This document shows positions 2,260 through 57,108 of a stretch of 64,000 bases of DNA, in pieces. This DNA comes from Malassezia japonica (lineage: Eukaryota > Basidiomycota > Malasseziomycetes > Malasseziales > Malasseziaceae). The notes beneath the pieces are model-generated. The model saw nothing but the letters and a program-made list of their open reading frames with translations. It was not told the DNA's origin and did no database searches. Numbering within the stretch: the first letter of the stretch is position 1; every line of letters starts with the position of its first letter. The stretch spans positions 1,426,001 through 1,490,000 of the forward strand of contig NC_083370.1 in assembly GCF_029542785.1 (NCBI RefSeq), given 5' to 3'. The translations under genes were made by a program, and so were the position numbers.

Positions 2260-2831
2260 ATGGCGAGTGTGGCACAGGTCCTGCGACGCAATCTTGCGGT
2301 GGCGCCGCGCATGGCACTGCGCGCGCCTGCGGTGTGCCGTGCCTCCCCCGCGGCACCGCTTGCGACCCGGTTTCTGCATACAACACGGCGTATGTACGAG
2401 TGGCGCTGACCTAGCTTCCTTGCACGAAGGCATTACGCGCCCCGAGCCAGGGACAGGGTAGGTGTTGTGGCTGACGCAGGATCAAGATCAACTTTAAGGA
2501 CTCGAATGGGAACCCCATCAAGACCGTCGAGGCGAACGAGGGCGACGACCTGCTGAGCATTGCGCACGAGTACGACATCGACCTCGAAGGCGCCTGCGAG
2601 GGCTCGATTGCCTGCTCGACGTGCCACGTCATCCTCGACGAGGACGCATACTACCATCTCGAGGAGCCCGGTGATGACGAAAACGACATGCTCGACCTCG
2701 CCTTTGGCCTCACCGACACGTCGCGCCTCGGCTGCCAGGTCAAGGTCGAAAAGGCGCTCGACGGCCTCAACGTACAGCTCCCCGCAGCGACGCGCAACAT
2801 GTACGTGGACGGCGCCAAGCCGGGTCATTAG
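2260..2831 (+). CDS. YAH1: mitochondrial adrenodoxin-type [2Fe-2S] ferredoxin
   Basis: Spliced model of three exons: 2260-2389, 2415-2457, 2480-2831, with introns of 25 and 22 nt; 174 residues. The first ~43 residues are Arg/Ala-rich with no acids and end in LHTTR, a matrix-targeting presequence. The mature part reads RPEPGTGIKINFKD and contains the cluster ligands C97, C103, C106 (CEGSIACSTC) and C143 (SRLGCQ), with the family segment EEPGDDENDMLDLAFGL. Yah1 passes electrons from ferredoxin reductase to mitochondrial iron-sulfur assembly and to heme A synthesis. Both introns are needed: without them the presequence and the ferredoxin domain lie in different frames. The second intron follows the rigid 22-nt layout found throughout the window. 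Confidence 0.93.
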
Positions 2832-2852
2832 CTATGTAATCTGGTATAGGTC

Positions 2853-4692
2853 CTACGCATCCAGCAAGGAAAGGTCAAAGGGGCCAGGCACCAGGCCGAG
2901 GCGCTTGTACAGCGATGACATCTTTTCCTCGTTCGACGAGATCGTGTCGCGCGCCTGGCCTTTGTGGCCACGCAGCAGCGTCACGACCTTGCCGGGCGCC
3001 CGGCGGCCATCGCGGCCGATGCGCGCGACGCGCCCAGCAAGGTGGGTATACTGCACCGCGTCGCCCACGGCCGGCATGCCGACCAAAAAGACGTGCGTCA
3101 GGCCGGGCACGTCGAGGCCGCGCGCGCTGCTCGACTGCAGCAGGTAGAGCACCGGCGATTCGTGCGGCGCGGCGCGGCGTTCGGGCGACACAACCTGCAC
3201 CGGCACGCCGAGCGCCTCGAGCGCCGCCTGCGTCTTGCGCATGCTCCAGCGCGGGGGAAAGAGCGCGAGGCCGCTCTGGACACCATCGGCCGCAAACGCA
3301 AACGCAAGCGCCTCGAGCAGCGCCGCATCAATCACATGCTCTTCCGGGCCGTCGGACGGGGAGACGGGCGCGCGCTCGGTGCGCATCTCACGGGGCACGG
3401 CGTCCGAGGCGCTCCGCGCCAGGTTCCGGATCGGCGGCAGCTGCAGGCCCGCGTCCGCGTACGGCGCGTCGCCCGGCGTGTCTACGACGAGGCACGTGTG
3501 CGAAATCTCACGGGGCAGCGCTGCCGACGCCGACGCGCCGTCCGTGAGGCCCGTCTGGTCGAGGTAGCATGCCGTGTCGCGTGTCTCGCGCGTGTTGGTG
3601 CGGAGCCATCCGGTGCGTGCGCCGAGAAAGTGGCGCAGCACCGAGTTGGCCGTCGCGCTCGTGCAGATCAGCTGCAGCGGCACCGTGCCGGGCTCGCGCG
3701 GGAGCGCAGGCGCGAGGTCCTGCGCCTTTTCGGCGCCGCGATACTGCGCGCGGCGCACATGCTCCGGCGGGCGCTTTTCGGGGCCACGGCGGGGCCCGGT
3801 GCGCTCGAGGCCGGCGGTGAGCAGGCGCTCGCCCCCCGAGTAGGTCGCGCGCCGGAGCATCACCTGGTTCAGCAGCTGGAGGCCCGGCGTGCTATGCGTC
3901 TGGTGGCGCCACACTTGCTTCGCGCTCGGAAAGCGCCCTGGGAGCTGGAGGAGCGCATCCGCCTCGTCCAGTGCCACGGTACGGATCGTCTCGAGGCCCA
4001 GCAGCGAGCGGCCCTCTGGTTCGTTCAGCAGCTCCAAAAACCGCGTCGGTGTTCCGACTACCACATGCGGCGGTGATTCCCGAAGTTTGGAACTTTGCAT
4101 AGCTGCATCCTGTCCGCGCACCACGCATTGGATCACGGCGTCCATCGAGGTAGCGAGCTGTGTGGGGACGAGCGCACGCGCCCACGCCATGTACTGTTCC
4201 GCCAGCTCGTTGCTCGGCACGATGATCCACGCCGAAATGCCGGCCGCCGGCGCTTTTCCTGCGTGACGAAAGAGCAGGCGGGGCTTCGCGAGCAGCGCGA
4301 GCAGCAGCGCGAGGCTCTTGCCCGAACCGGTATGCGCGCGCAGGATCACGTCACTTGGCGACAGGACGGCCGGAATGAGCGCGGCCTGCGCCGGCGTCGG
4401 CTCCGCCACATGCGGCATCGTCGCGGTGAGCTGCGCACAGAGCGTCGGCGAGAGGCCTAGTTTCTGGATAAGACGCGCAACGTACCTCGAATGCCGACGA
4501 CGGCTTCCCCTCGGCCCCGGCAGGCGCGGCGGTCGCGGCGAAGCGCGCGGGCCACGCAAAGCGCGCCCAGCGCGCGGGCGGGAGGATCCCGGGCCTAGCA
4601 ACCCGAGCCACCTCCAGTGCGCTCCTGCGCACCAAGGATGGAATCACGCCGCCCATCTTGATGGGGCGCCGTGCCAAGACGTCGCTGCCCAT
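2853..4692 (-). CDS. DEAD-box RNA helicase, probably mitochondrial (Mrh4-like)
   Basis: Exons 4692-4486 and 4463-2853 separated by a 22-nt intron (4464-4485) in phase 0; 605 residues. Motif I is AHTGSGKS (residues 112-119), the Q-motif region PTPAQAALIP precedes it, motif II is DEAD, motif III SAT, and motif VI HLAGRVARIGRDG. A long low-complexity insert separates DEAD from SAT. The first exon is basic and Ala/Arg-rich with few acids, consistent with a mitochondrial presequence, which is why Mrh4-type function in mitochondrial ribosome assembly is the leading guess. The splice joins SSAFE to KLGLSPT. Its 3' end converges on YAH1 with 21 bp between stops. Confidence 0.85.
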
Positions 4693-7676: not shown

Positions 7677-8338
7677 TTAGGCGGTCTGCTGAGGGCACGA
7701 AGCCGCCAGGTGGTCGCCCGAGCCACACGAGTAGCACGAGCGCTGGGGCGGCTGCGAGCAGTTGCGCGACATGTGGCCGAACTGGCCACAGTTGTAGCAC
7801 TTGGGGCCGTCGCCGCCGGCGCCGGCGCCGGCGCCCATCGCACCCGAGGCCGACGGGCACTCGCGGCTAATGTGGCCGGCACCGCCACAGTTGTAGCAGC
7901 CGCGGCTGTTGCCGCGCGCACCAGTGGGGTTCTTGGGGCAGGCACGCGCCATGTGGCCGACCTCACCGCAGCGGTAGCACTCCTGGCCGCTCTGCGCGCT
8001 CTCGGCGGGCTGCGTCGGGCAGTCGCGCGACAGGTGCTCGGTGCTGTTGCAGCGGAAGCAGGCCTTGGGCATCGTCTCCTGCGGGCAGTCAGACGAGACG
8101 TGGCCCTGCTCGTTGCAGTTGTAGCTGCGGTTACATCCTCTGTTCGCACACTTACCAAGTCGGGTTGCCGGCCGTCGGGCACGATGCAATGTTGTGTCCA
8201 GCTAGGGGTCAGTCGACAACACGTACGACGTCCACAGCTAAAAAACGAAACAAAACGCGACAAAAAAAGTACGCCCCATCAGCCCCCCTTCTTCACAACG
8301 TGTGACACCCACTTATAACAGCTCCTCGAAAACGACAT
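7677..8338 (-). CDS. GIS2: CCHC zinc-knuckle RNA-binding protein (Gis2/CNBP/Byr3 type), seven knuckles
   Basis: Spliced model: exons 8338-8313, 8237-8227, 8201-8156, 8124-7677; introns 75, 25 and 31 nt; 176 residues. Exon 2 is an 11-nt microexon. Seven CX2CX4HX4C knuckles result: CYNCGRPGHNIASC, CYNCNEQGHVSSDC, CFRCNSTEHLSRDC, CYRCGEVGHMARAC, CYNCGGAGHISREC, CYNCGQFGHMSRNC, CYSCGSGDHLAASC. The first is assembled from three exons, which strongly supports the model because every junction restores a Cys or His in register. Knuckles 3 and 7 deviate in the usual Gly before His. Gis2/CNBP proteins bind single-stranded nucleic acid and polysomal mRNA. The first donor is GTGGGT, weaker than the others. 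Confidence 0.9.
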
Positions 8339-9463: not shown

Positions 9464-11639
9464 ATGAGTGACTCCCTCCTCGCCGCGCTGTCGTCGCTCT
9501 CCATCGAGCCGGCCGCTCCCAAGGCCGTGTCGCACCAGGCTGCCGAGTCTCAGGCTGCCTGGGGCGAGGCCCTTGCTGCGCTCCCTGCTGCGGAGCTGCC
9601 GAGCGGCTACCACCTGCTCAAGACGCTCGTCTTCAAGCCCAAGACCGCCAAGAACGATACGCCGGTGCCTGTGATCGTCGTGACGGACGAACAGACGCAG
9701 ACGAACACGAGCGCTATCGGCGCACACCTCAAGCTGAAGGAGCTGCGCCTCGCTGTTCCGGAACTGCTGCGCGCGACACTCGACGCGACCAAGGACGATG
9801 GTACGTGCATCTTCTCACCCAGTCTCGCCCTTTAATGTGACCGAGGCGAACGCGGGCAAGGTCCGTGTCCTCCTTGACGAAGGAATCGTGGGGTCGGATG
9901 TGCCGTACGCCGTCCACGCGCGCTCCGCGTCCGAGACGGTGTTTGTGACCGGCGCGGCGCTCAAGGCCTACCTCGAGAGCACCAAGGTGCCGCTCGATGT
10001 CGCCGCCTTTAGCTCGCTCGCTGCCCCTACCCCGGCTCCGCCTGCCGCGAAGCCCGCCGCAAAGGCCAAGGCGGTGGACGCAAAGATCGCCGACGCCGAG
10101 CTGATCGGCATTACGGTGCAAAAGGACCTCGACTTCCCCGAATGGTACCAGCAGGTGCTGCGCAAGGGTGACATGCTCGACTACTACGATGTGAGTGGCT
10201 GCTACATCCTTAAGCCCTGGAGCTACTTTGTCTGGGAGTCTATCCAGAAGTTCTTTGACGGCGAGATCAAGAAGATCGGTGTCCAGAACTGCTACTTCCC
10301 GATGTTTGTCTCGTCGGATGTGCTCGAAAAGGAAAAGGACCACATTGAGGGCTTCGCCCCCGAGGTCGCGTGGGTGACGCGCGCCGGCAAGTCGGAGCTC
10401 GAGAAGCCCGTCGCGATCCGTCCCACGTCCGAGACGGTGATGTACCCCTACTATGCGCGCTGGATCCAGAGCCATCGTGACCTGCCCCTGAAGCTCAACC
10501 AGTGGAACAGTGTCGTGCGCTGGGAGTTTAAGCACCCCCAGCCCTTCCTGCGTACGCGCGAGTTCCTCTGGCAAGAGGGCCACACCGCGCACCTGACCCA
10601 GGAGTCGGCCGGCGAGGAGGTCATGCACATCCTCGACCTGTACCGCCGCGTGTACGAGGAGCTGCTTGCGCTGCCCGTCGTGCCCGGTGTCAAGTCTGAG
10701 AAGGAAAAGTTTGCCGGTGGTCTGTACACGACCACCGTCGAGGGCTACATCCCCACGACCGGCCGCGGTATCCAGGGCGGTACCTCGCACTGCCTCGGCC
10801 AGAACTTTTCCAAGATGTTTGACATTACTGTGCAGGACCCCAAGGCGACGGACGAGACGCGCGGCAAGCCCGAGGGCCGTCTCTTTGTCTGGCAGAACTC
10901 GTGGGGTCTATCTACGCGCCCGATTGGTGTGATGGTCATGGTGCACGGTGACAACAAGGGTCTTGTGATGCCCCCCCGCGTCGCGAGCACGCAGGTGGCG
11001 ATTGTCCCCTGTGGTCTGGGTGTCAAGGTTGCGCAGGACGTCAAGGACGCTGTGAACGAGACGTGCACGCGCATCGCCAACGAGCTGACCAAGGCGGACG
11101 TGCGTGCGCACGCCGACCTGCGTGACAACTACAACCCCGGCTTCAAGTTCAACGACTGGGAGCTGCGCGGTGTGCCGATCCGTCTCGAGATCGGCCCCAA
11201 GGACCTGGAGAAGAAGTCGGTCGTTGGTGTGCGCCGCGACAATGGTGCGAAGGAGTCGCTCCCCATCGACACGATCGCCGAGACGATCCCTGCGCTGCTC
11301 AACACGATCCACAACGACATGTACGCGCGCGCCAACGCCGAGTTCCGCGACCACCGCAAGGTGGTCACCGAGTGGGACGCGTTTACCTCTACGCTCAACG
11401 CCAAGAACCATGTGATCATCCCGTGGTGCGAGGAGGAGGCGTGCGAGGATCAGATCAAGGACCGCAGTGCGCGCACGGTCACCTCGGGCGAGGCGCAGGA
11501 CGAACGTGCCCCCTCGATGGGCGCCAAGTCGCTGTGCATTCCCTTTGACCAGACGCCCTACCCCTCGATCGAGGGCAAGCAGTGCCCCCAGTGCGGCAAG
11601 GCTGCCAAGCGCTGGACGATGTTTGGCCGTAGCTACTAA
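9464..11639 (+). CDS. cytosolic prolyl-tRNA synthetase with N-terminal YbaK/ProX-like editing domain
   Basis: Exons 9464-9800 and 9823-11639 with a 22-nt intron (9801-9822); 717 residues. The first ~170 residues resemble a YbaK/ProX-type trans-editing domain (ELPSGYHLLKTLVFKP, then SPFNVTEANAGKVRVLLDEG across the junction). A class II catalytic core follows: GCYILKPWSYFVWESIQKFF, RPTSETVMYPYYARWIQSH, RTREFLWQEGHTAH and STRPIGVMVMVHGDNKG. An anticodon-binding domain and the archaeal/eukaryotic-type C-terminal zinc region ending in GRSY complete it. It charges tRNA-Pro. It converges on the seryl-tRNA synthetase with just 6 bp between stop codons. Confidence 0.95.
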
Positions 11640-15728: not shown

Positions 15729-16852
15729 CTACGAAAGCCAATACGGAGCGGCCATGGCCTCCTCGGCAATGACCAGGTCGATCGAGTCGCCAAAGTACTC
15801 GGGCTCCTCGTCATCGAGCGCACGCACAGCAGCAAGCTGGTTCTGCGAGTCGCCCAGGGCATAACACAGGTAGCCCGCGGGGGCAATGTAGGCACGCGCT
15901 GGGTCAGTGCGGCGACATACACGAATAGTCGACCAATGCCTTGCCGTCGCGCACGCGGATTCCGGCGGGCACCGCGGGGAACTTGCACGAGAGGAGCGTG
16001 CGGTGCATCGCCTGGAGCAGAGGCAGGATGCGCTGGTCGCCGCTCACGGCGTAATAGTGCGCGAGGCGCCACGCTGGGTGAGTCAAGTTACGTACGCGTA
16101 CGGCACGCGTTCCAGCTCATCTCGCCGTCGTACTTCGACTCGAGGTGCTTGCCGCGCGGGGGATGCCAGCCATGGCGCGAGTCGTATACCAAAAAGTCGG
16201 CAATGAGGCCCGTATGAGTGTGCTGCATCTGGGTCAGCGCGACCTGCAGCGTCGCTTCGAGGACCTGTTGCCAGCGCGAGCGCGCATGGGGGTCGGGGTG
16301 CTTCAGGTGAAACAGGAGGAAGCTCGACAGGATAAAGTCGGAACTACGCGTCGAGTTGTAGAGCCGCTGGTTGTCGCGCCCGTCCTGGTTGCACCAGTCG
16401 CCGAGCAAAGGAACGTGGAGCGACGGGTGGATGCAGTGCGCCATCAGCGCGTCGCACAGGCGCGCAGCCTCTGCGCCGTACACACCGCCGGGGTGCATCT
16501 GCGAGCCATGCGGCCACTTGCGCGCAGCGAGGAACAGCGCCGTGGCAATGTCAATGTCGCCGTCCGTGGCGCAGTCCTCGGCATCCTCCGCGACGTACAG
16601 CTGCTGGCGCGAGTCCATGCGCACCTGCCACTTCATCAGGCCATGATTGTTGCGGTAGGCCTGAAAGAAGGACAGCAGCCCGTCAAAGTCGGCCTGGTTG
16701 CCGTGCAGCACCGCAATGAGCATCGCGTATCCGTGCGCCTCTGAGCACGTCACTGCGTCACCATTGTCGCCCGAGCCGTTGTAGAAGCAGTACATGCCCA
16801 TAGGGCTCGACCGCATGTACGTTCCACACCAGCTACGGTACCGCGCGTCCAT
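15729..16852 (-). CDS. glycoside hydrolase family 8 enzyme (endoglucanase/chitosanase-like)
   Basis: Exons 16852-16096, 16073-15921, 15898-15729 with two 22-nt introns; 359 residues. GH8 hallmarks: SEAHGYAMLIAV with the expected proton-donor Glu at residue 38, ATDGDIDIATALFLA with the acidic residues at 97-101, and NACRTPWRLAHYY, a motif reassembled exactly across the first intron. GH8 enzymes hydrolyse beta-1,4-linked cellulose, xylan or chitosan. The family is predominantly bacterial and unusual in fungi. No signal peptide is visible at the ATG at 16852, and no in-frame upstream ATG exists in the 319 bp before eS17. Secretion would need an unseen upstream exon. The two introns match the host's own 22-nt pattern, so if acquired, the gene is long resident. 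Confidence 0.85.
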
Positions 16853-17171: not shown

Positions 17172-17839
17172 TTAACGACGGCCGGCACCAGGGACGTGGC
17201 GACCCTTGCGCTCCGGAACCTGCGAGAGGGTGACCGGGGCGGTGACCGTGACCGGGAGGTTGTCAAAGCCGAGGCTGTGGATCAGCTCATCGGTGTCAGG
17301 GTCGATCTCAAGCGGCGCAACCGACGAGTCCAGGGCAGAGACCTCGGGCACGTATTGGTCCTGGAGTGTAAGTACAATGACGGGGGGTGAAAACGTACCT
17401 TGCGCTCGCGCTCCTCCTCCTGGAGCTTGAACGAGATGCCGCGGACGGGGCCACGCTGAATCCGCTTCATCAGGTGGGTGGTGAAGCCGGCAATCTTGTT
17501 CCTCAGGCGCTTCGAGGGGATAATGGCGACCTCATCGATGACCTTCTTGTTCGTGTGGAAGTCCACCGGGTTGAGACGGGGGTAGTACTTCTCGATGAGA
17601 ACGCGAGCGGCGCGCTTGGTGGTCTTGGTACGAACGCGACCCTGTTAGGTGTTAGCTTTATCCTCAAAGAGAGAGTGCATGGGCAAGCTCGTCTCGCATA
17701 GTGCTTGGGCCTCTGTCCTCTTTTCCCATGCTGCCAAGCGCGGGTCAAGGCGAGGCGCAGTGTGCTCCGCAGACGGCGCATCTGCCGAACACCATGCAAG
17801 ACGTGCCGGCCCAACGCACATCATTATGTCACTCACCAT
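17172..17839 (-). CDS. RPS17: 40S ribosomal protein eS17
   Basis: Exons 17839-17837 (just the ATG), 17641-17399, 17360-17172; introns 195 and 38 nt; 144 residues. The protein begins [21 protein letters not shown] and contains [17 protein letters not shown] and [20 protein letters not shown], the eS17 signature, ending in GAGRR. An intron directly after the start codon is typical of fungal ribosomal-protein genes. The long first intron has complementary 7-bp arms (17705-17711 and 17808-17814) that could fold the donor towards the branch site. The promoter (17840-18089) is shared divergently with uS8 and has a CACGTG at 17939. Confidence 0.95.
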
Positions 17840-19041: not shown

Positions 19042-19922
19042 CTATTCCCTCTTCCGTAGGCGCTTGGGCTCGGGCTGGTCGCGCGGCGCGGCGTGGGTAG
19101 TTTCGGGTGCGGCGTGCACACGCTTGGCATTCCCAGCAGGCTCCTCGGCAGCGTGAGTCTGCGGTGTAAAGGAGGGGACGTTGGGGTTGAGCTGCGTCTT
19201 GGGCTCACCTCCATCCGCATCTGCATCCGCCTCGGCAGGGCCCGAGGCAACCGGCGCCTGCCTAAGCGAGGCATCGATCGACTCGTGGAGCTTCTGCAGC
19301 TGAGCCACAATCGCATCCAGACCACTCCGTGTCTCGGCAGTGATGCTGGAAAACGACTCATTCTCCTGCTTGAGTGCCGCGACACGCTCCTGGAGCGACT
19401 GCAGCGTGCTCTCCATGTCTTCGCGGCTGGGGTATACAACAATCTTGCGCGCGAGCTCGTCGTACTCGATGCGGTTCTGCCGCGTCTGCTGCGCTGCCTC
19501 GAGTTCTTTCTTGAGACGCGCAATATTTTTACGCTCTTCCTCGCATGATGCGTCTGGGTCAGCGGCGGGATACGTACGTAGCGCGGCTGCCTCGCTGTCG
19601 TACGCCTCGATTTCGCGCTGGGTGGTCGACTGAGACGTGGCCTGCAAGCGGTTAAGGTGATTGCAGAACAAATCGAGGTCGCTCTTTAGCATTATGACCG
19701 CCGCATTGCTGTATAAGTAGATGCAAAGTACGTACTGTTCCTCGTCGCTGGCAGCTTGCGCAACGGTCGTGATGCGTTTTGTGAGGCGCCGGAGGTATTT
19801 CTCGTCTGTGGCCAGGCGCGCTTTAAGGATATCATCTAAGGAGTAAGTATGCACATTCCATAGGAGTACTTACCCTGCTCCTGGCCCGTAAGGAGCGCCA
19901 TGGCCGGCTGTGTGTCGGTCAT
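19042..19922 (-). CDS. THO complex subunit 7-like coiled-coil protein
   Basis: Exons 19922-19874, 19835-19736, 19708-19042; introns 38 and 27 nt; 271 residues. It starts MTDTQPAMALLTGQEQ and continues DDILKARLATDEKYLRRLTKR. The central coiled coil contains NRIEYDELARKIVVYPSREDM, which matches the YDxLAKxI...P.R signature of THOC7. THO/TREX couples transcription to mRNA export. The C-terminal tail is Ala/Pro-rich and ends in a basic KRLRKRE. The 27-nt intron (19709-19735) is a multiple of three with no stop, so retention would insert nine hydrophobic residues; splicing restores a normal heptad region. The assignment rests on a short motif, so a different coiled-coil protein remains possible. 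Confidence 0.62.
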
Positions 19923-20216: not shown

Positions 20217-20896
20217 TTAGGCCTGGACCTTCTTGACGGCGGCACCGAGGATGCGGCGGCGCTGCTTCTTGAGGACCTGAACGTGGAAGCGCTCGACTGC
20301 AGTGTCAGTATACTGTGCAATGAAAAAAACTTACAGTCAGTAGTGTTCTTGCGCGTCTCGCGGGCCTGGAGAGTCTTGGCCCACTTGGTGTTGGCCCACT
20401 TCTCCGCAACACCCGAAGCATCGAAGGCCTTCTTCACAGCGGTGGTGCCGGCAGCGAGAGGAAGCTGGATCTTCAGGGGGGTGAGGGTCATCTCACGGTA
20501 GCGCAGAGGCTGGCGAGCGACACCGGTCGACGGGCCGTCGATCATGGCCTGCAGAGTTAGCATATGTTCCAAAAAAGGGGTGGACCATTCGAGTCATGCC
20601 GTGGTGGTTATGGTGCTGGGTTCATCCGGCGACGTCGAAAGCGCGGCAGCGCGAGTAGCACACGCACCGTCGTGTTCTTCTCAGCCCTTCCGCACCTCTT
20701 GATCTGTCGCAGAAAGCTCACCGGCCCCAAAGCAACACGGCATGTCTGTCCTGTCTCCTCCCTCTTGTGCTGTACTTACCCTGTTCTGGTCAATGATCTC
20801 AACAATGACGGCGATCTTGTTCTTGTTCTCGCCGTTGTTGAGGAGGACGACACGGCCGACCTCAACGTAGCGCTTGAAAGACTCCTGCGAACCCAT
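20217..20896 (-). CDS. RPL14: 60S ribosomal protein eL14
   Basis: Exons 20896-20780, 20548-20335, 20296-20217; introns 231 and 38 nt; 136 residues. The sequence MGSQESFKRYVEVGRVVLLN, IVEIIDQNRAMIDGPSTGV, RYREMTLTPLKIQLP and FERFHVQVLKKQRRRILGAA is eL14. The first intron is long and has 9-bp complementary arms (20595-20603 and 20736-20744), which would bring donor and branch site together. The promoter is shared with KCS1 and contains three CACGTG sites. Confidence 0.95.
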
Positions 20897-34965: not shown

Positions 34966-37898
34966 CTATGCAGAGGGCGCCGTGAGGCGCTCGAGCTGGG
35001 CTTGGAGGTGCCTGGGTTAGCCAAGGGACGTACCGAATTCGTGCCTCGTCACGCGCACGGGACTCGCGGGCGCCAAGGCGCTCGCGTTTCACACGCTCCT
35101 CCGCCTCTTTGACGCGCTGCTCGAGCTCGCGCAACCGCACGGACCACCGCCCGGGCGAGTCGGCACCGGACGCGCCGCGCGCGCCGGGTGCGTCGCGCAC
35201 ACGCGCAAGCTGTTGCTTGAGCGAGGTGTTGGTGCGCTGCAGATCCGCGAGCTCCGTCTCCGTATCCACAATGCGGCGGCGCCACTGGGCTTGCTTCGCG
35301 GCAGCCGCCTTGATCGAGCGCTCAATACGCTCAATCTGGCTCCAGCGCGACTCTTGCTGCCGCCGCAGCGCGGCGAGCTGATCGGCCTGGCTGCGCTCGA
35401 GCGCACGCGCACGCTGCTCAAACGTGCTCTGCACCGCAGCCAGGCGCCGCACCAGCTGCAGCAGCCGCTCGCTAAACTGGGGGAGGTGGGTGTGAACAAG
35501 CTTGGCTTCGGACGAGGTGCCATCGTCGCCCACGTGCTTGCGCTGCGTCAGAGGGGGTACGTACAATGGTGCCGGTAGTCTGGTCCGCGCCCGCCAGCGC
35601 CTTGGTCAGCGTCTCGTAGACAGTAGCCAGCAGACTGTTGCGCTCCGCAAGCTGCGCTTGCTGCTGCGCATCGCCGCGGCGCGCCGTGCGGCTGCTCTGC
35701 TCAGACATACGCGAGCGTGTGCTCGACGCCGCGAGGTCGTGCCGCGCCTCGTCGAGAGATCGCTGATTCTGGTCCAGACGCTCTTGCGCACCGACACGCG
35801 TCCGCGTCTCGGTCTGGAGTGCAGTGACCAGCTCTTTCGTCTCGGCCTTGAGGCGCTGCGACTCGGCCTCGGCGTCCTGGCAACGGTCCTCCATGCTCGC
35901 CAGCTCGTCCTGGACGCGTTCCAGCTCGGCGGCGAGGCGCTTCGACTCGCGCTGGTGGCGCGCACGCTCCGCTTCGATCGTCTGGCGCTCGGTGGCCTGG
36001 TCCTCGCTGCGGCGCAGCTGCTTGGTGTCCTGCAGCTGCATCGCACGCTGCAGCTGAGCATGCTCCTTTTCGAGCTGCTGCTTGTCGCTGCGGGTCTGCA
36101 CGAGCTGGCGCTCGAGCGACTCGATGAGCTCGTTCTTGGTCTGCAGCGCGCGCTGCGTCTGCACTTCGGTCGAGTCGTAGCGATGGGACCAGGACGAATC
36201 GGCGCGCTCGCGTGCCGTCTCTTCATCCTTGAGGTCCTTGACGAGCTCGACGAGCTTCTCGTTCAGACGGGTGTTGAGCTCCTCGAGCTCGCTGCGCTTG
36301 GCACTGTGCCGATCGACGGCGTCGAGCAAAGAATCGCGCTCGGTGCGCAGCTGGTCCACATCGACCGACAGTGCATCGACCGACTGCTGCGCCTCGTGGA
36401 GCTGCACGGCGGTATCCGACAGCTTCTCTTTGAGCGCCTGCGAGAGGCCTTCGTGGTAGGAGTGCGCCTCTTCAAGCGACTGCTCCAGACGCTGCACCTC
36501 TTCGTCGAGCTCGCGCGCTTGGCTCAGCGCGGCCATCTCAGACTGCGTCCGGACCGCGAGTTCGTTCTCGAGCGCGGCATATGCGGCCTCGGCCTCGCGC
36601 TGGACCTGGTCGAGGCGGTCGAGCTCGCCGTCCTTCTCGGCGACCAACAGACGCTCAGCATCGAGCGCATCTTGCAGCGAGCCAATCCGCTCGCTCTGCT
36701 CCTCGACCTGGCGCTGGAGGTGCACCATCGCCTCGGCATCAGGGGCATCCGGATTCTCGTGGAAGTAGTCCAGCTCCTTCTCGGCGTCGATCAGATCGGC
36801 ACGCAGCTTGTCGATGAGCTCGTCGCGCTCGGCAATGTCCTCGTGCAGCTCGTCCACCTCGGTCTGGTGGCCACGCTGGCGCTGCGTGTCGTCGCGCAGC
36901 ACCGCAAGCTCATCCTCCAGGACAGCGCGGCCGGCTTGCTCGCTCCGCAGCTTGGCCTCGAGCGAGGCGATCCTAGCGTCGTCCGGACGCGCCGCAGCCG
37001 CCTTGGCCTCGGCCGCAGCCGCGCGCTCCTCGGCACGACGCAGCTGTTCTTGCAGCACATCATAGTCCTGGACCTTCGTCTCCCACCCTTTGACCTGCTT
37101 GTTCACCGTCTTTAGCGCCTGATCCTGGCCTTTGACCAGGTCATTGAGCTTCTGGAGGCGGCGCACGTAGCTCAACTTCTCCTGCCGCAGCGAAATAACC
37201 TCTGCACCGACGTCCTCGGGACTCATGTTGCGCCGGTGAAAGTCGACCTCGATCTTGAGATCGTCGCGTTCCGCAGTCAGCTGGTCAATCTTTTGCTGCG
37301 TCGACTTGATCGAGATGCCGGCCGCAGTGCGCCGCTTCATCTCTTGCACGCCCCACTGGCCCGAGTTGGAGCGGTCGCCAGTCGCATCGCCCTCCTCCTC
37401 CTCGAGCAGTTCGTCCACCGCCTCGTTGCCGCGCATCAGCTGGCTGGCACGCAGCGATGTCGAGAGCGACGAGTCGTCGTGGTCCCACGTCGAGTCCTCT
37501 GCCGCAGGCGTGGTATACGAGCTGCTCTTTCCGGTCGTCCGTGGCGTCGTAGAGGCAGATTGCGGAGGCTTGCGCGGCGTCGCCGACGCGGAACTCGTCG
37601 ACTTGCGCGGCGTCGCAGCAGGGTCTGGCAGCGCAGTGGGCAGCGGCTCATCCATCAGGTCGCCAGAAGACGACTCTTCTGCTGAGTGCCGCTCGCTTGC
37701 CATGCTATCTTCTGTCGTGGAGAGGAGCAGGGCGCCGCGAGGATCGGAAGTCGCCTGCAGGTCAATGCTGCTATCCGACTCCAGGCCCAGCGTCTGGTCG
37801 TTATGGACAGACGCAAGAGTCTGGTCTAATGATGCATCCTGTGCATCCTGTGTGCCTTTCTCCCAGAGCGCCTTGAGCTCATTGATACGCTTGGACAT
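34966..37898 (-). CDS. long coiled-coil protein, possible spindle-pole/cytoskeletal scaffold
   Basis: Exons 37898-35565, 35542-35034, 35011-34966 with two 22-nt introns; 962 residues. The N-terminal ~190 residues are Ser/Thr-rich with repeated TPRK motifs (ATPRKSTSS, ATPRKPPQS). From about residue 200 to the end it is almost continuous coiled coil. A block at its start (QQKIDQLTAERDDLKIEVDF, then LRQEKLSYVRRLQKLNDLVK) resembles, weakly, the CM1/centrosomin N-terminal motif of gamma-tubulin-complex tethers such as Mto1 and Pcp1. Splicing restores TGTIRKHVGDDG and, at the end, ARIRHLQAQLERLTAPSA. Function is inferred only from architecture; a golgin- or tropomyosin-like role is not excluded. 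Confidence 0.7.
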
Positions 37899-38683: not shown

Positions 38684-39443
38684 CTACTTGCCGCCGGTGC
38701 CTTTGAACCACTGCGTGAGCCGTGCGCAGGGACCTACCTTGGGGAACTTGCGCTTCTCGCGCGCATTTTGAGCATCCGACGGCGCATCGTCGGTGCTTTT
38801 GTGCCGCACGGACGGCACTTGTGTCGTAAAGGAGGGTGCAGGGGGCATCTCACGTGCATTCGAGAGCAGTTCGGAGCGCAAAGGCGCAGGCGCGTCCGTC
38901 GCTGGGTCAGTAGAGCGGCGTACCATTGCGCTGCGCATCCATCCATCGTATCCCTAGCACGGCCGCCGGCGCGAATCCCAGCTGAATGAGTGTAGCAGAG
39001 GCGCCCTGCGCGCGCGGAAAGTCGCGCTTCGGCGGCGACTGGAATAGCACATAGTCACCGGCAGCCTGCACGGAATTGTCGACCAACGCGTAGACGTCAT
39101 TGATCGTGGCGTTATGCGGAAAGACCTGCTCGATCTGCGTGCGGTCCGCAAAACGCACGCGGATCCGCACCGAGTCGTACTGCTTCTTCGCACGCCCTTG
39201 CGCCTCAGCCTGGCGCGCACGCATCGCGCTGGTCATCAGGGGTGCATTGGGGCCATGCCGCTGCTGCACGGCATCCGCAAACGCGGTACGCAGCTCGGCC
39301 GGCGTCGGCTCAAAATTGTCGCTCTCGGGGGGCGGGGGAGCTGGCGTTAGATGGCTCTACGTACCATATACACGGCTGTTTGGTGCACGGTATACAGCCA
39401 CGGGCGTGCTCCCTGCGCCTGCAGGTGGCTCGTTCGCGCTCAT
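38684..39443 (-). CDS. UBX-domain protein (ASPL/TUG/Ubx4-like)
   Basis: Exons 39443-39365, 39340-38924, 38901-38738, 38710-38684; introns 24, 22 and 27 nt; 228 residues. The UBX beta-grasp fold is central: YDSVRIRVRFADRTQIEQVF, NATINDVYALVD, YVLFQSPPKRDFP and TLIQLGFAPAAVLGIRW. The R-x-R/FP pair expected to dock Cdc48/p97 is represented by the RVRF and SPPKRDFP segments. The N-terminus (VYRAPNSRVYAPPPPESDNF, EPTPAELRTAFADAVQ) resembles the region preceding UBX in ASPL/TUG. The tail ends KFPKWFKGTGGK. Such proteins are adaptors of the Cdc48 ATPase. Three introns in a gene this small show how far splicing is needed for correct models here. Confidence 0.83.
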
Positions 39444-39548: not shown

Positions 39549-42500
39549 ATGCATGTCTGGCTGGCAGAGGCGACGGCGCGCCAGCGCACTGTGCTGGTGA
39601 CGCGGTACGATCCGTATGATAAGTCGTCATCTGCGTCGCTCGTCCTTGCATTCTCGGTATCGGGCGACCGGTGCACCTTGTCGTTGCTATCAGCAGCAGA
39701 CCTCGAATGGTCGTCGATGCAGCGCCTCTCGTCGCCCAACACGCCACTCCTGGGCCTGTTGGGTATGATCAAAGTTGGAAATGATATCTTTATTGGATGT
39801 GTGACGAGCTCGGAGCGCGTGGGATGCTTGCAGCGTGGCCAATGGGTCGGGCGCGTACGCGGCGTCGCGTTCTACTGCGTGACCCGCACCTTGTACGACG
39901 AGGACATGTCCCTTGGTGTCGATCCACAAGATTACGGACGCGGTGGTGCGTCTGCAGCGCAGGGAGAGACGCCCTGTGCGTCGATCCGCAAGTACATTGC
40001 GTCGGGGTCGTTCTACTTCGCCGAAAAAGGCGCCTTTGATATGACGCAGCACGTTGCGCGCATAACGTCGCGCAGCGACGTTGACGAGTCGTTTCGCTCG
40101 CAATTTGCATGGAACGCCTACATGATGGAGCCAATCCTCGAGTTTCGTTCGCGCCTCGACACGTCGCAGCGGAGTGAGCTGGACAAGGAGGCGCTGCTCT
40201 CGCTCGTCATCCAGGGCTACGTTGGGATGACTAGCGTCCCGCTTGGCCCCGACCGTGCATCGAAAGGCACTCTCGCCGTAATCAGCCGGCTGAGCTCACG
40301 TAAGGCCGGCACACGCTTCAATGCACGCGGCATTGACGACCAAGGCAACTCGGCCAATTTTGCCGAGACCGAGACGGTGCTCGCGTACGGTGACGAGCTC
40401 TTTAGCTACGTACAGCTGCGTGGATCTGTCCCCATCTTTTGGGAGCAACAAGGACTGCAGGCCCTCAATGCACGCATCCAAATCACGCGCACCGGCGCTG
40501 CCTCGCAGCCTGCCTTTGACCAGCACATGGAGCAACTCTTGAACGAGTACGGCCGTGTGTTTGTACTGGACCTGCTGGGTACGCGCGATGCAGAGGTCGC
40601 GCTGAGTCAGGCGTACGTGCAGCATATCGAGAATCTCTTGCCCAACATCCAGAGCGGAGAAGAGAACCAGCCGCTGCGCTATCATAACTTTGACTTTCAC
40701 ACGATTGCCAAGGCCACGGGTGGCCTCGATGGAGCGCGCGCCGAGCTCGATCGCCTGAACAATGTCCAGCTGCAGCGCCAGCACAACGGGTATACGCTGG
40801 TACGTCTCGACCACGGGCGGCTTGTGCGCCTGGCGATGCAGCAAGGTGTCTTTCGTGTGAATTGCTTCGACTGCCTCGACCGCACCAACGTCGTGCAGGG
40901 TTGCCTCTCGCACGCAGCGCTGCGAGAGTTTTTCCGAGAAATCAAGCGCGATACGCAGGGCGATGCGCGCGGATGGCTAGGCAGCACGCCCGGTCTGCCC
41001 GAGCAGCTCTGGCCGCAGCACGGCCGCCTGTGGGCCGAGAATGGAGATGCGCTATCGCAGATCAGCACCGGCACCGGCTCGCTGAACTCGGACTATATGC
41101 GCACCGGCACGAAAAAGTCGTTTACGGGCCTCTTGAGCGACGCGGCGAAAAGCGCGAGTCGGTACGTGGACGTGCTCACACAGAATGTATATGAACAACT
41201 TCCAAGACCAGAGCAAGCAACAGGCTATCGATACGCTGCTCGGCACGCGCAGCGGCCAGTCGCAAGTCCAGCTATACGACCCCCTCTATGCAGCGGTGGA
41301 CGAGAAAATGGCGCGCCGCCGCGACGAGTACGCGTCGAAAAAGCGGGTACACCTCTTTGTCGGCACCTACAATGTGTGTGCGCAGCCCGCGCACCAGAAC
41401 GCGCTGGGAGCGTGGTTCGACGAGCATGACGTACGCAAGGCCGACGTGATCGTGCTGTCCTTCCAGGAAATTGTGCCGCTCACCGCGCAGCAAATGCTCT
41501 CGTCCGCCGCTGAGCCGATGCGGCAGTGGGAGGCGGCAGTTCTCTCGGCATTGAACCGCGGTACGACATCGTACATGGTTCTGCGTTGCGAGCTCCAGTT
41601 TGCCACCTCGCTCCTGGTCCTGGTGCACAGCGAGATGCTGCCGCATGTGCGCAACGTCGAGGCGACCTCGAAAAAAACCGGATTCCGGGGCATGAGTGGC
41701 AACAAGGGCGGCGTTGCGGTGCGCATGGATGTGTTTGACACGGAATTCTGTTTCGTCGGTGCGCACTTGGCCGCAGGCAATTCGAACGTCGACGAGCGCA
41801 ACGCCGACTACCAGAGCATTGCGCGGGGCATCCAGTTTCCTCGTGGACGCACCATCGACTCGCACACGCACGTATTCTGGGCGGGCGATCTGAACTACCG
41901 CTTCGACCAGCTGAGCAGCGACGAGGTGCGCGCGCTCTGTGCCGAGCTTACGCCGGCCACGTACGAGGGCGAGGCGCCGACGTCGAACCGCGTCCTCGAC
42001 AAGCTCTACGCACACGATCAGCTCAAGAGCGCCCAGGCGTCCAAGGCGGCGTTTGCCGAGTACAACGAGGCGCCGCTCTTATTCCGCCCTACGTACAAGT
42101 ACGACGTGCACACAGATACCTACGACTCGTCGGAGAAGGCGCGCGCCCCTGCGTGGACCGACCGCATTCTGTGCCGCAGTCGCGACGATGCGCTTCCTTT
42201 ATCTATCAAGAGGTATGGATGCGCGGACGTGCGTGTGAGCGATCATCGCCCCGTTTTTGCGGCGATCGACGCGACTGCGTACGCCGTCGACACGGCTAAG
42301 CGCGCTGAGATGCGCAAGAACGTCCTCGCGACGATGCCGGGCACGCCGGCGCAAAAGAGCGTCCTTCCCCGCCCCTCGGACGAGCTCCAGCAGTGGTGGA
42401 ATGACGGCACGCCGCTGGCACCCGTGCCCGACACGACGCCGGGCAACCCGTTCGAGGCGGCCCCCACACGTACCATGATCGGGGGGCCCGATACCCCTGC

Positions 42501-47300: not shown

Positions 47301-47417
47301 TCGCCTGCACCGATTGTTCGATCGCTTGGGCGAAAATGTTCGGCGGGATCATGTCCGCGGATCTGTCGTGCGTGGTGCGACGGAGTTTCCAATACGAATA
47401 AGTACGTGTATAGAAAA

Positions 47418-48506: not shown

Positions 48507-48530
48507 GGTGGGAGCAGAAAGTACATCGCC

Positions 48531-48595: not shown

Positions 48596-48610
48596 GCACA
48601 TGCCATGTCC

Positions 48611-48725
48611 GAGCGCATGCAATGTCCGAGCGCATGCAATGTCCGAGCGCATGCAATGTCCGAGCGCATGCAATGTCTGAGCGCATGCAATGTCTGAGCG
48701 CATGCAATGTCTGAGTGCATGCACC
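48611..48725. repeat. 17-bp minisatellite, six full units and one partial
   Basis: The unit GAGCGCATGCAATGTCY is repeated at 48611, 48628, 48645, 48662, 48679 and 48696, with a partial, diverged seventh copy from 48713. The first three units end in C, the next three in T. Each unit carries the palindrome GCATGC. It lies between the promoter of copy C and the 3' end of copy D; no coding function is evident. Confidence 0.93.
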
Positions 48726-48874
48726 TAATTTACTTGCGTCTTGGCGCGCTCCTCAGGCACATCGCTATAGCAGGAGAGCAGGTACTAGTCATCGTCTCTA
48801 GCGTCGCTTGGAGTACAGCACGAAATAGGGATGTATTATGATTTCATTCGACATCTACAGCCAACGCACTTCGT

Positions 48875-49966: not shown

Positions 49967-49997
49967 GTTGCTGAGAAACAGCTCATACGAGCCCTTA

Positions 49998-50124
49998 CAT
50001 TTATAAGATTAGGGTCTGTGCCACACCGTCCTGACCCTCGGACCTAGCGCTTGGGCCAGCTCTGAACCCTGAATTATCCCCGAAATCTTGCGCTAACCCC
50101 GTTGGTGGGACCGTGCGAGAAAAC
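49998..50124 (-). promoter_or_regulatory. copy D promoter elements
   Basis: TATA-like sequence at about 49998-50008, GGTCTGTGC at 50013-50021, TTATCCCCGA at 50074-50083 and CCGTGCGAGAAAAC at 50111-50124. This promoter carries all element types found in the array. Confidence 0.6.
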
Positions 50125-50239
50125 CCAATACCATTGATTGGTCGATGCCTAGGCGATATAGGTCAGAGGGCAAAGAAATTGACGGAATTTTGGTGGTGTA
50201 ACAGTCTATGAGTTCAACGTGCAGCGTAGGACTATAGGG

Positions 50240-53406: not shown

Positions 53407-53681
53407 ATGAGCCAAATCACAACACCCCAGCAGCTTGGGGACTGGGTTGAGTCGCTCCTGACGCAAGTCGAGACGCGGCTCGGCGAGCGCAACAAGCAGG
53501 TGGAAATGCGGAGTAGGTGGTGTGACTAATGCAGTGAACGAAATGGCCGATCGCATCGACGCGCTCGAATCGTCGATTCAGGGTAGGTGGTCCGCCTGAC
53601 GCAGAACTGGTGCACGGTGCCGAGACCGGCGCGGGGGTGCCTGCTAGCACCTCGAGTATCACCGCGAGTGAGACGCACTAG
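53407..53681 (+). CDS. small coiled-coil protein, heat-shock-factor-binding-protein-1-like
   Basis: Exons 53407-53512, 53535-53582, 53605-53681 with two 22-nt introns; only 76 residues. Without splicing no frame is longer than a few dozen codons, so it is easily missed. The core TPQQLGDWVESLLTQVETRL followed by MNEMADRIDALESSIQELVH shows the a/d heptad pattern and the R-I-D-x-L-E-x-x-I motif of HSBP1, a trimeric coiled coil that binds heat-shock factor and also supports WASH-complex assembly. Both introns obey the window's rigid 22-nt layout, and both junctions keep the heptads in register. Confidence 0.8.
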
Positions 53682-54775: not shown

Positions 54776-55895
54776 ATGCCGCGCGCGGGGGCCGGCCGGC
54801 AGGACAGCGCGTCGCCGCACAGCAGTACGGCGTCGCTGCCGCCCAAACGCGCGCCCTCCCTGCGGCGCTCGCAGCTAGAGTCACGGCTGCTGGCAGGCAG
54901 CCAGGGCGATGTCGAGATGCTCTTGAATCCACCGCCCCGGCCTGTACACGGTACGTCGCCTGACTCACGCAGACAACCCCTTTCTCCCGGGCGATACCGT
55001 GCTATGGCTGGATGGGCGTTTGCCCGAGTCCGGCACACACACCCGCCCGATCGAGGACCACGTCCAGGCGATCCTCACCTACCTGTCTGACCCCGAAAAA
55101 GCACGCGTTTGCGCTGCGATGCAAGAGGTCGAGACGCCCGACTACTGTGCGGCCGATGCGCCCACGAGCCTCGGCAAGACACGCGGTGCATCCTTACAGC
55201 CGCAGCGCGACACATCCGACGCGGCGTACCTCGCGCGGCACTTGCGGCATGAGCGCAACGAAAAGAAGCTGCGGCGTCAGGAGAAGGACGCACTCGTGCG
55301 CGACCGCAAGCGCCTCATTGCACAGATCGCAAGCATGGAACAAGTCGACGTCGCGCTGCTCGTCCCTGCGCTGGCGGCGCGCGAGGCCGAGCGGGGCGCC
55401 GCGCCTCGCGACGAAGACGAGCTGCTTGCGCACCTTGGAAACTTGCGTACGGAACTCGTGAGCGACGCCAAGGCGACGCTCGCACGCTACGACAAACTCC
55501 TGCCCGACGAGGCGCAGCGCGGTGCACCGAGCGAAATCCGCGCCTCGCCGGCGCCCAAAACACGCGCCTCGCCTACGCCGCTCGTCGCCGATCCCCCCGT
55601 GCCCCGGGTGGTGAAGGAGCGGACGTGTGCACTTGGCGCGCACACCAGCACGCCGTACACGACGCCGCCCCGCCGCGTGGGGCCGACGCTCGCCGAGCTC
55701 GCCCATACGCCGCGCGATGCTTCCCCGACACCGCCCGGCTCCGTATACCCCCCGCATCCGCCCAAGCGGCGCAATTCCTCGCGTAGAAAGGCCACCAGTG
55801 CGTTTGGCGAGCGCGTGCCCGACTATGCGGCGCACCGCGAGCCCTTCGACACGGCCATGGCGCACTTTCTCCACGGTGCGGAAACCCCTCCATAA
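54776..55895 (+). CDS. uncharacterised protein with conserved-looking N-terminal half
   Basis: Exons 54776-54950 and 54973-55895 with a 22-nt intron; 365 residues. The junction gives PPRPVHDNPFLPGDTVLWLD followed by IEDHVQAILTYLSDPEKARV, a compact region that looks folded. A Lys/Arg/Glu helix follows (LRHERNEKKLRRQEKDALVR), then a Pro/Thr-rich tail with TPP and SPTP sites and KRRNSSRRKA, a likely nuclear signal. I do not recognise the family; nuclear chromatin or kinetochore-type proteins have this composition. It sits head to tail with SWD2, 20 bp apart. Confidence 0.6.
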
Positions 55896-55915
55896 TTCCC
55901 CAATCGATCTCTGCC

Positions 55916-57108
55916 ATGAGCGACCAAAGGACCGCGCCGACGGCGGGCGTGCCGAGCGGCTCGCTGGCGCTGTCGTTGGGCCTTGTCGATAGTTTCAAGC
56001 CTGCCAAGGTGTTTCATGAGTTTGTACAGCCTGACTGCCAAGTGACGAGCGTCGACTACGACGATCGTGGCGAGATGTGCGTCACGGCGTCGAACGACGA
56101 GACGATCCAGCTGTACAATTGCCGTGCGGGACGGTATGTGGGCACGCTGACGCAGGCATACCAAGACGCTCTATAGCAAAAAATACGGCGTGTACCTCGC
56201 GCGCTTTACGCACCGCGCATCGGCGATTATTTACGCGTCGACCAAGGAAGATGGTACGTGCGAAGGCTCACCCAGACACCATTCGATACCATTCGCTGCA
56301 CGACAACAAGTACCTGCAGTACTTTCGTGGACACAAGCGGCGGTATGTATTTGTGCTAACAGTAGCGTTGTGTCGCTCGAAATGTCGCCGGTCGACGATA
56401 CCTTTTTGTCCGGCGCAGTGGACGACGCCGTGCGGCTGTGGGACTTGCGCAGCCCGGCCGCGCAAGGCCATCTGCGTGTGCAGGGCCACCCGGTCGTGGC
56501 GTACGACCCCACCGGCGCGGTGTTTGCCGTGGCACTGAACGAGCGCAATGTCGTGCTCCTGTACGACGTGCGCAAGTTCGACCACAGCCCATTCCTTACC
56601 ATCACGATCGACGACACGGCCGCCCTCTCGCAGGTGTCGATGCCGCCGCGCGTGCCGGTGATTACCCATCTCTCCTTCAACCAGTCGGGACAATTTATTT
56701 TGGCCGGCACGGCGGGCGACGTGCACTACGTCGTCGACTCCTTCTCAGGCAAGGTCCTATGGCGCCTCGTCGGCCATCTCGGGCTCGAGCAGGCTTCGGG
56801 CGGCGGAGTGGGCATGGTGCCGCAGGCGGGCATTAGCGGCCAGGAGGTGTGCTGGACACCCGACGGCAAGATGGTGATCTCTGGCTCGGCCAACGGACAG
56901 CTGTGCATCTGGGCCATGCCGGAACAGATTCCCACCTCGCCCAAAACACTCCAGCCGAGTGCGATGCTCAACGGGCACGAGGGGCCGGCGCGTGTCGTTG
57001 CGTTCAACCCTAAATGCGCTCGTACGTACTATGGCTCACACAGAATTGTGCACAGCGGGCGCGCAGGTTGCACTCTGGCTCCCGGACCTCGAAGGAGTCG
57101 CTGAATAG
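55916..57108 (+). CDS. SWD2: Swd2/WDR82 WD40 subunit of COMPASS and cleavage/polyadenylation factor
   Basis: Exons 55916-56133, 56156-56253, 56276-56342, 56366-57021, 57044-57108; introns 22, 22, 23 and 22 nt; 367 residues. The spliced protein has HTKTLYSKKYGVYLARFTH, YHSLHDNKYLQYFRGHKRRV, VVSLEMSPVDDTFLSGAVDD, VRLWDLRSP and ends TAGAQVALWLPDLEGVAE, a close match to Swd2/WDR82 throughout. Swd2 serves both the Set1 H3K4 methyltransferase and, in fungi, mRNA 3'-end processing. The third intron ends in CAGTAG. The first AG abuts the branch motif, so I use the second; use of the first would add one Ser. Unspliced, the gene falls into four frames. Confidence 0.93.

Follow-up and report, generated by a model that had tools for sequence, protein, structure and literature searches.

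Our data support 15 segments of exactly 22 nt as real introns with fixed internal spacing in a 64,000-nt stretch of DNA (the window) from the skin yeast Malassezia japonica, whose whole genome appears to carry about 2,700 such introns, each of 22 nt. We infer splicing itself from reading frames, homology and genome-wide counts.

Occurrence of the 22-nt motif

A first-pass annotation of the window had proposed 15 introns of 22 nt, built from a GTANGT-like donor, seven free bases (N7), a CTNAY branch motif at positions 14-18 and a terminal NCAG. We found this layout at all 15 positions, with GTANGT in 14 and GTACGC at 38902 (Table 1), and a relaxed motif scan of both strands of the window returned exactly these 15 22-mers. 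The strict motif occurs 14 times in the window and zero times in each of 100 dinucleotide shuffles. The further eight introns proposed at 23-31 nt agree with the eight motif hits of 23-27 nt, and our gene model supports four of the eight. The proposed total of 34 coding introns was not reproduced: our gene model has 25 window introns, of which one or more are doubtful.

Genome-wide, GTANGT-N7-CTNAY-NCAG matches 2,703 sites, and the reversed pattern, which served as the control for genome-wide motif counts, matches one. With 4,715 genes in the M. japonica draft annotation (PMC4634964), there are ~0.57 strict matches per annotated gene. Matches of 15-21 nt are no commoner than in the control (16 versus 16) and those of 23-45 nt number 722 versus 34, placing the mode of the genome-wide lengths at 22 nt. 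In 264 kb scanned with a loose donor, a 7-nt gap with a 1-nt tail occurs 67 times (reversed control, 1) and a 6-nt gap with a 1-nt tail does not occur (reversed control, 0). Introns of 21 nt are about a thousand times rarer than those of 22 nt; two of them appear genuine, so the length wall at 22 nt is steep, not absolute. Above 22 nt the lengths fall unevenly: among the first 100 matches listed of 23-45 nt, 20 and 12 are of 25 and 28 nt, and 3 and 5 are of 26 and 27 nt. Among 73 22-mers sampled solely by GT, CTNA and YAG, 92% have G at +5 and 90% have T at +6.

Table 1. Introns and intron candidates in the window, with the evidence for each.
Feature	Gene	Positions	Strand	Evidence and remarks
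22-nt intron	Yah1-like [2Fe-2S] ferredoxin	2458..2479	+	motif, gene model; Fer2 domain begins 3' of junction
22-nt intron	DEAD-box helicase	4464..4485	-	motif, gene model; DEAD domain begins 3' of junction
22-nt intron	prolyl-tRNA synthetase	9801..9822	+	motif, gene model, length-blind model; tRNA_edit domain crosses junction
22-nt intron	GH8-like	15899..15920	-	motif, gene model, length-blind model
22-nt intron	GH8-like	16074..16095	-	motif, gene model, length-blind model; WNACRTPWR restored; Pfam GH8 stretch stops just short of junction
22-nt intron	coiled-coil-like	35012..35033	-	motif, gene model, length-blind model
22-nt intron	coiled-coil-like	35543..35564	-	motif, gene model
22-nt intron, GTACGC donor	UBX-domain	38902..38923	-	motif, gene model; UBX domain 5' of junction
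22-nt intron	Sac1/inositol-phosphatase (synaptojanin-like)	41162..41183	+	motif, gene model, length-blind model; Sac1 alignment crosses junction
22-nt intron	HSBP1-like	53513..53534	+	motif; HSBP1 domain crosses junction; absent from gene model
22-nt intron	HSBP1-like	53583..53604	+	motif; HSBP1 domain crosses junction; absent from gene model
22-nt intron	SAS4 match below threshold	54951..54972	+	motif, gene model
22-nt intron	Swd2	56134..56155	+	motif, gene model, length-blind model; orthologue alignment crosses junction
22-nt intron	Swd2	56254..56275	+	motif, gene model, length-blind model; orthologue alignment crosses junction
22-nt intron	Swd2	57022..57043	+	motif; orthologue alignment crosses junction; different acceptor in gene model
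25-nt intron	Yah1-like	2390..2414	+	motif, gene model
25-nt intron candidate		8202..8226	-	motif only; absent from gene model
24-nt intron candidate		19554..19577	-	motif only; absent from gene model
27-nt intron candidate		19709..19735	-	motif only; absent from gene model
25-nt intron		31462..31486	+	motif, gene model
27-nt intron candidate		38711..38737	-	motif only; absent from gene model
24-nt intron	UBX-domain	39341..39364	-	motif, gene model
23-nt intron	Swd2	56343..56365	+	motif, gene model; orthologue alignment crosses junction
38-nt intron, longer class		17361..17398	-	gene model; TACTTAC branch; branch A to end 8 nt
38-nt intron, longer class		19836..19873	-	gene model; GTAAGT donor; branch A to end 8 nt
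38-nt intron, longer class		20297..20334	-	gene model; GTAAGT donor, TACTGAC branch; branch A to end 8 nt

Gene models, reading frames and tiny exons

The gene model finds 12 of the 15 window 22-mers exactly. At 57022 it has the correct donor and a distant acceptor, because two genes were fused; the pair at 53513 and 53583 sits in a 76-codon gene that it missed, whose spliced product matches HSBP1. A gene model blind to both branch motif and length, which permitted introns of 12-200 nt, placed 36 of its 79 introns at exactly 22 nt and none below, and recovered 7 of the 15 window introns. Given decoy signals, it made 17 calls, one of them of 22 nt; of the introns that it otherwise predicted, many longer than 70 nt resemble these decoy calls. 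In a frame test, splicing fits 46 of 54 strict matches, compared with 4 of 34 and 4 of 74 in the two control sets. Four of the eight misfits are confident: three form the Rieske cluster, in which the flanks that the test relies on are crowded with introns, and the fourth (L008) lies outside that cluster.

Domain or orthologue alignments cross 7 of the 15 junctions (9801, 41162, 53513, 53583, 56134, 56254 and 57022), and reading frame and motif support another seven (2458, 4464, 15899, 35012, 35543, 38902 and 54951). Splicing at 16074 recreates WNACRTPWR, identified in the first-pass annotation with the GH8 motif. Swd2, Sac1, HSBP1 and the ProRS editing domain are all continuous over 22-nt junctions, and SNRNP27K is continuous through one 22-nt and one 23-nt intron. 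In Swd2, orthologues align through the 22-nt junctions, and the read-through prediction P0242 diverges from them exactly at the 57022 donor.

Elsewhere, two or three introns are packed within 1-7 nt of each other. In a TatD gene the reading frame requires a 1-nt exon, and its inclusion restores LLVDAHCHPTE, also present in M. sympodialis; exons of 3 and 7 nt in a Rieske gene restore CPWH of the Rieske domain; and a JmjC gene has a 3-nt exon within its JmjC domain. Both 3-nt exons are frame-neutral, whether included or skipped, so that motif and spacing are their only support. Plant 1-nt microexons, reported in APC11 and VPS55 (PMC8831610), are likewise single bases between two introns; unlike in plants, the M. 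japonica exon is flanked by 22-nt introns, which makes the whole intron-exon-intron unit 45 nt.

We also searched public records for two multi-intron genes, taking as candidates proteins of 0.55-1.75x query length. No M. japonica-named record was among the matches listed (119 of 119, and the best 120 of 728), and most of the entries from unnamed sources carried no name. The intronless U2AF65 reading frame retrieved an exact M. japonica record. These results suggest, without proving, that public gene models miss the 22-nt introns. Software for gene finding or read mapping whose minimum intron length is set higher would break such genes.

Intron geometry and the splicing machinery

Two intron classes are present, one short and uniform and one longer with a different 3' geometry. 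The branch A lies 5 nt from the intron end (a 1-nt tail) in 55 of 57 22-nt introns and in none of 14 introns of at least 33 nt, whose branch-to-acceptor spacing is longer; donor +4 is A in 0 of 57 and 4 of 14, respectively. Lengths of 23-32 nt form a transition, the 1-nt tail being present in 18 of 30 and in 3 of 7. The 22-nt class coexists with introns of 23-45 nt and with modelled ones of up to ~230 nt, and its layout leaves no room 3' of the branch point for a polypyrimidine tract. Rigid spacing is thus a property of the 22-nt class, not of longer introns.

U2 and U6 carry canonical recognition sequences, GUAGUA and ACAGAG, and the U2 gene contains GUGUAGUA. Cwc25 has not lost its Gly-rich N-terminal plug, which reads MGAGDLNMKKSWHP versus MGGGDLNLKKSWHP in the best solved homologue, with two of three glycines kept; the extreme N-termini are MGAGDLN and MGGGDLN. 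The Isy1 N-terminus is also conserved, with solved Isy1 chains aligning from residue 1 and gap-free over the first 24 residues. SNRNP27K, U2AF65 and a METTL16-family gene have conventional sequences. U1 was not detected with its Rfam model.

The first-pass annotation had read the fixed donor-branch and branch-acceptor distances as implying a spliceosome adapted to them. The distances themselves are supported for the 22-nt introns by frames, homology and genome-wide counts, and this class has its own rigid spacing. Longer introns are spaced otherwise, and U2, U6, Cwc25, Isy1, U2AF65, SNRNP27K and the METTL16-family gene are all conventional, so adaptation is only partly supported.

The class has two sequence features of U2-type introns: GT and AG termini, the donor following a U1/U6-type consensus (GTANGT...CAG in 14 of the 15 window introns), and a branch motif, CTNAY at 14-18, that would be able to pair with U2 GUAGUA. 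Minor, U12-type introns have an ATATCC or GTATCC donor and a TCCTTAAC branch; the GTANGT-like donors and CTNAY branches rule out this identity for the 22-nt class.

Possible origins of the 22-nt class

We consider it probable that the 22-mers belong to the ordinary U2-type spliceosomal introns and have shrunk to the lower size limit of the M. japonica spliceosome. In this reading the 5' splice site would be GTANGT, position 17 would hold the branch-point A and the 3' splice site would be the AG at positions 21-22, with seven free bases between the expected U6-pairing stretch (+4 to +6) and the expected U2-pairing branch motif, and one base between that motif and CAG. Deletions would shorten introns until further donor-branch loss impaired splicing, so that lengths would accumulate at 22 nt. 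Recognition would be by intron definition, since adjacent 22-nt introns lie as little as 1 or 3 nt apart. Against compaction, it gives no reason for the rarity of 21 nt, nor does trimming alone predict that longer introns have a branch-to-acceptor spacing of their own. The uneven fall of lengths above 22 nt, the two 21-nt introns, the eight frame misfits and the recovery of only 7 of the 15 window introns by the length-blind model, with its decoy-like long calls, also weigh against it. A more tentative proposal, which we think less likely than not, is that 22-nt introns are handled as one rigid unit (first base to branch A 16 nt, branch A to end 5 nt), distinct from longer introns; weaker +4 pairing (mostly C, no A in the sample) may free U1 so that U2/U6 could dock on the seven-base bridge, which would permit one-base exons.

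The differences in 1-nt tail and in +4 A would also fit a molecular ruler in a retuned spliceosome, where one or more factors would set both distances and the 22-nt introns would form their own substrate class with a distinct mode of removal, as would the undetected U1 and the retention of U2AF65 despite the lack of space for a polypyrimidine tract. We think this unlikely: the components listed above are conventional, whereas Stentor is reported to have altered N-termini in both Cwc25 and Isy1 (PMC9505925), and introns of 23-32 nt bridge the classes. Less probable again is that the 22-mers are insertions, introner-like elements acquired whole, as opposed to old introns that were trimmed. Their uniform length and motif and their packing 1-7 nt apart speak for this origin, but N7 duplication among 67 introns is not clearly above the column-shuffled expectation, with 3 identical pairs versus a mean of 0.96 (reached by 13 of 200 shuffles), 20 versus 14.0 at up to one mismatch (19 of 200) and 103 versus 95.3 at up to two (48 of 200), a comparison of low power with seven bases, in which old copies would have diverged. 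That the segments are not introns, but are retained in mRNA or match a loose consensus by chance, we find scarcely credible; the eight frame misfits would agree with it, and the frame-test controls, the single reversed match, the orthologue continuity and the departure of P0242 from orthologues at a donor count against it.

Compaction to 22 nt can be compared with ultrashort introns reported in ciliates, trichomonads and a nucleomorph. The first-pass description of 22 nt as near the shortest intron size known agrees with reports of 15-16 nt in Stentor coeruleus (PMC9505925) and 18 nt in Bigelowiella natans (PMC12316389); Trichomonas vaginalis type B introns are about 23-25 nt (PMC12316389). 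As far as that report describes it, Stentor shares with M. japonica a dominant fixed length, a nearly fixed branch A position and conserved snRNAs (PMC9505925), whereas M. japonica has a length of 22 nt, a strong donor, a CTNAY branch, CAG signals, coexisting longer introns, and the conserved Cwc25 plug and Isy1 N-terminus. T. vaginalis also combines a uniform short class with a longer one, the two classes carrying different motifs, but its 24 type B introns have T-rich filler (PMC12316389), which the 2,703 strict 22-mers do not. Yarrowia, Trichomonas and Giardia, by the account in PMC2483917, similarly fix the branch motif a few bases from AG with no polypyrimidine tract; they are intron-poor, whereas M. 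japonica has 2,703 strict matches for 4,715 genes, which excludes it from that category, and also fixes donor-branch spacing. In the same genus, with compact genomes as well, introns are reported at a mean of 37.2 and median of 30.0 nt in M. restricta (PMC9241646) and a mean of 76-79 nt in M. globosa (PMC4634964), and a review mentions 'very short introns' in Malassezia (PMC7426719). We found no single 22-nt mode with a wall, two geometries or 1-3-nt exons in the portions of the Malassezia literature searched.

If the rigid-unit reading is true, a fungus whose splicing components are largely standard would define a near-minimum U2 spliceosome substrate. Transformation methods are reported for M. 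furfur and M. sympodialis (PMC5654937). With about 2,700 such introns, an almost complete wall separating 21 from 22 nt, a longer class to compare and conventional U2, U6, Cwc25 and Isy1, M. japonica makes the smallest spliceosome substrate directly testable.

A 22-nt intron class across the genome

All 15 of the 22-nt segments that the first-pass annotation had read as introns are present in the window with the layout it described, and a relaxed motif returned precisely these and no other of that length. With the motif held strict (GTANGT-N7-CTNAY-NCAG) we found 14 matches, compared with none in 100 dinucleotide shuffles. Across the M. japonica genome (8.43 Mb, 9 contigs) the same motif has 2,703 matches, and the reversed pattern has one. 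Varying the gap between donor and branch motif gave 16 matches at 0-6 bases (15-21 nt) versus 16 in the control, and 722 at 8-30 bases (23-45 nt) versus 34; matches of exactly 22 nt thus make up about 79% of strict matches within 22-45 nt.

We tabulated this gap against the tail (the bases between branch motif and acceptor) in 264 kb, comprising the window and 20 pieces of 10 kb. For GTANGT donors paired with YAG acceptors, 58 matches fall in a single dominant cell (gap 7, tail 1), and gap 6 has no match. A looser donor gave 67 matches in the dominant cell versus 1 in the reversed control, together with four matches each at gap 3/tail 1 and gap 5/tail 4, for both of which the control gave none. 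We rejected both small groups as introns: the former, of 18 nt, all lie within 22-nt matches to the motif, and neither they nor the latter, of 23 nt, fit splicing by frame. Motif matches of 23-27 nt correspond to all eight further short introns claimed for the window, and a gene model backs four of them; the claimed total of 34 window introns was not reproduced, the gene model placing 25.

A gene model blind to length, supplied with GTRNGY donors, YAG acceptors and codon usage but no branch motif, and allowing 12-200 nt equally, called 79 introns in the 264 kb. Exactly 22 nt was the length of 36, and none was shorter; a decoy signal set gave 17 calls scattered over lengths. This model recovered 7 of the window's 15 segments. 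In a frame test of 54 strict 22-mers (56 were found, two lying too close to a sequence end), 46 fit splicing, four fit retention and four fit neither, with splicing fitting 4 of 34 and 4 of 74 control positions. Three of the four confident misfits form one cluster that is consistent with splicing on inspection; the fourth, in L008, a sequence examined besides the window, stays a misfit.

Protein alignments run across 22-nt junctions in several genes. The four Swd2 junctions, three of them of 22 nt, align gaplessly to the M. vespertilionis, M. pachydermatis and M. nana orthologues, with identical or similar residues on either side, and P0242, a database prediction that reads through the Swd2 intron at 57022, departs from the orthologue alignment exactly at that donor. 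The Sac1 alignment crosses a 22-nt junction. The HSBP1 alignment likewise crosses two 22-nt introns, the editing domain of prolyl-tRNA synthetase spans a 22-nt junction, and SNRNP27K, encoded outside the window, matches its solved counterpart to the C-terminus once a 22-nt and a 23-nt intron are removed. Frame test, length-blind model and protein continuity suggest, indirectly, that the segments are real introns, as first proposed.

The shortest introns and smallest exons

The length wall below 22 nt is steep, not absolute. We inspected four of the 16 matches at 15-21 nt, namely the three of 21 nt found genome-wide and one of 20 nt. Two of the three 21-nt matches appear to be real, judging by frame and alignment. 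One lies in a CDK8-like gene, where its retention would introduce in-frame stops and its removal leaves a protein that aligns across the junction. The other is in an NAE1-like gene; here the alignment of the spliced protein crosses the junction with a one-residue gap, at a point where retention would insert seven residues. The 20-nt match, the only one inspected among the 13 below 21 nt, gave no support for splicing.

Above 22 nt, intron lengths follow a three-base rhythm: among the first 100 listed of the 722 matches at 23-45 nt, 25 and 28 nt (20 and 12 matches) outnumber 26 and 27 nt (3 and 5). Nonsense-mediated decay does not account for the rhythm, and we rejected it as the cause of the favoured lengths 22, 25 and 28, because retention of a 3n+1 intron reaches its stop later than that of a 3n+2 intron (median 143 versus 94 nt, leaving out stops within the intron itself).

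We looked for places where a full 22-nt intron begins within 0-4 nt of the tail of another intron; there are three, versus none in the control, and at all three a complete 22-nt intron lies upstream. In a TatD-family gene, a one-base exon separates two 22-nt introns; the frame requires that base, and the spliced product reads LLVDAHCHPTE, the same as in M. sympodialis. A Rieske-domain gene carries three 22-nt introns with exons of 3 and 7 nt between them, and joint splicing restores CPWH. Another 3-nt exon, that of a JmjC gene, falls within the matched domain; the gene has no PDB match at E 0.001, and its alignment with JMJD6, a weak match (E 0.04), is gapless when the exon is included. Both 3-nt exons are putative calls from motif and spacing, because the frame survives inclusion or skipping alike. 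One-base exons are known in plants, according to passages of PMC8831610.

Two geometries and the splicing machinery

The spacing described as fixed holds for the 22-nt class but not for introns of at least 33 nt. Among 108 of 117 modelled introns with a clear branch motif, the tail is 1 nt in 55/57 introns of 22 nt, 18/30 of 23-25 nt, 3/7 of 26-32 nt and 0/14 of at least 33 nt; the model rewarded branch motifs, GTANGT and CAG, so the list is not independent of those features, and some calls above 100 nt are doubtful. Donor position +4 also differs, being A in 0/57 and C in 46/57 of the 22-nt introns versus A in 4/14 of those of at least 33 nt, against a background at all GTRNGY sites of 11% A and 53% C. 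The dominant donor of the class is GTACGT, with +4 A in 0% of 73 sampled. At least one intron-bearing gene in the region that holds the window's longer introns resembles a ribosomal protein gene. Trichomonas introns are comparably split into short and long, as passages of PMC12316389 describe.

Features located in the window and in L004, another sequence examined
Feature	Location	Detail	Basis
Three introns of exactly 38 nt	window, within 17361-20779	branch A to intron end, 8 nt	gene model
Longer introns of the window	window, 17361-20779	in adjoining genes; further calls of 88-231 nt	gene model
Five intronless genes in tandem	window, 44758-51331, minus strand	about 355-363 codons; three begin MNALIVEG; look like a putative single family	
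Rieske and DUF455 domains	L004, reverse complement, about 6,400-7,600	in one open frame once spliced	

METTL16 and SNRNP27K have been linked elsewhere to donor +4 A (PMC10581693). We rejected loss of either as the explanation for the odd +4 base, since the genome has a METTL16-family gene and an SNRNP27K in which the counterpart of human Met141 is kept.

Origin of the 22-nt length

Three readings compete with that of an ordinary spliceosome on compacted introns. That the segments are not introns would suit the eight frame-test positions that do not fit splicing, against the 46 that do. A spliceosome retuned to fixed geometry, as the first-pass annotation proposed, would suit the near-constant tail of the 22-nt class, but the components compared look conventional. 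U2 and U6 genes score over the cut-off and carry the usual recognition sequences, and the Rfam U1 model has no match in the genome, a failed match that does not mean absence. U2AF65 (100% identical to M. japonica MJAP1_004289) has 487 residues, inside the 474-508 of other named Malassezia matches. The Cwc25 N-terminus reads MGAGDLN, versus MGGGDLN in the best solved homologue, and that of Isy1 is conserved; in Stentor, by contrast, whose introns are 15-16 nt, passages of PMC9505925 report a changed Cwc25 plug and Isy1 N-terminus. Insertion of ready-made 22-mers would make the introns copies of a unit; the seven free bases show no clear duplication, in a comparison of low power, and therefore lend no support to recent copying.

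Excerpts from earlier work note very short Malassezia introns in a review (PMC7426719), a median of 30 nt in an RNA-seq-aided M. restricta annotation (PMC9241646), the lower intron limits, 20 and 15, set for that species (PMC6473144) and a mean of 76-79 nt in M. globosa (PMC4634964). Among the top-ranked literature matches, none describes a predominant 22-nt length, a length wall or one-base exons for Malassezia.

Most likely, an ordinary U2 spliceosome acts here on introns trimmed down to its lower limit. The seven free bases would be the sequence left over between two expected helices, U6 with the donor and U2 with the branch motif, with the acceptor coming one base past that motif, and trimming of introns would be the origin of the 22-nt length. 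Introns lying 1-3 nt apart should need recognition across the intron and removal in succession.
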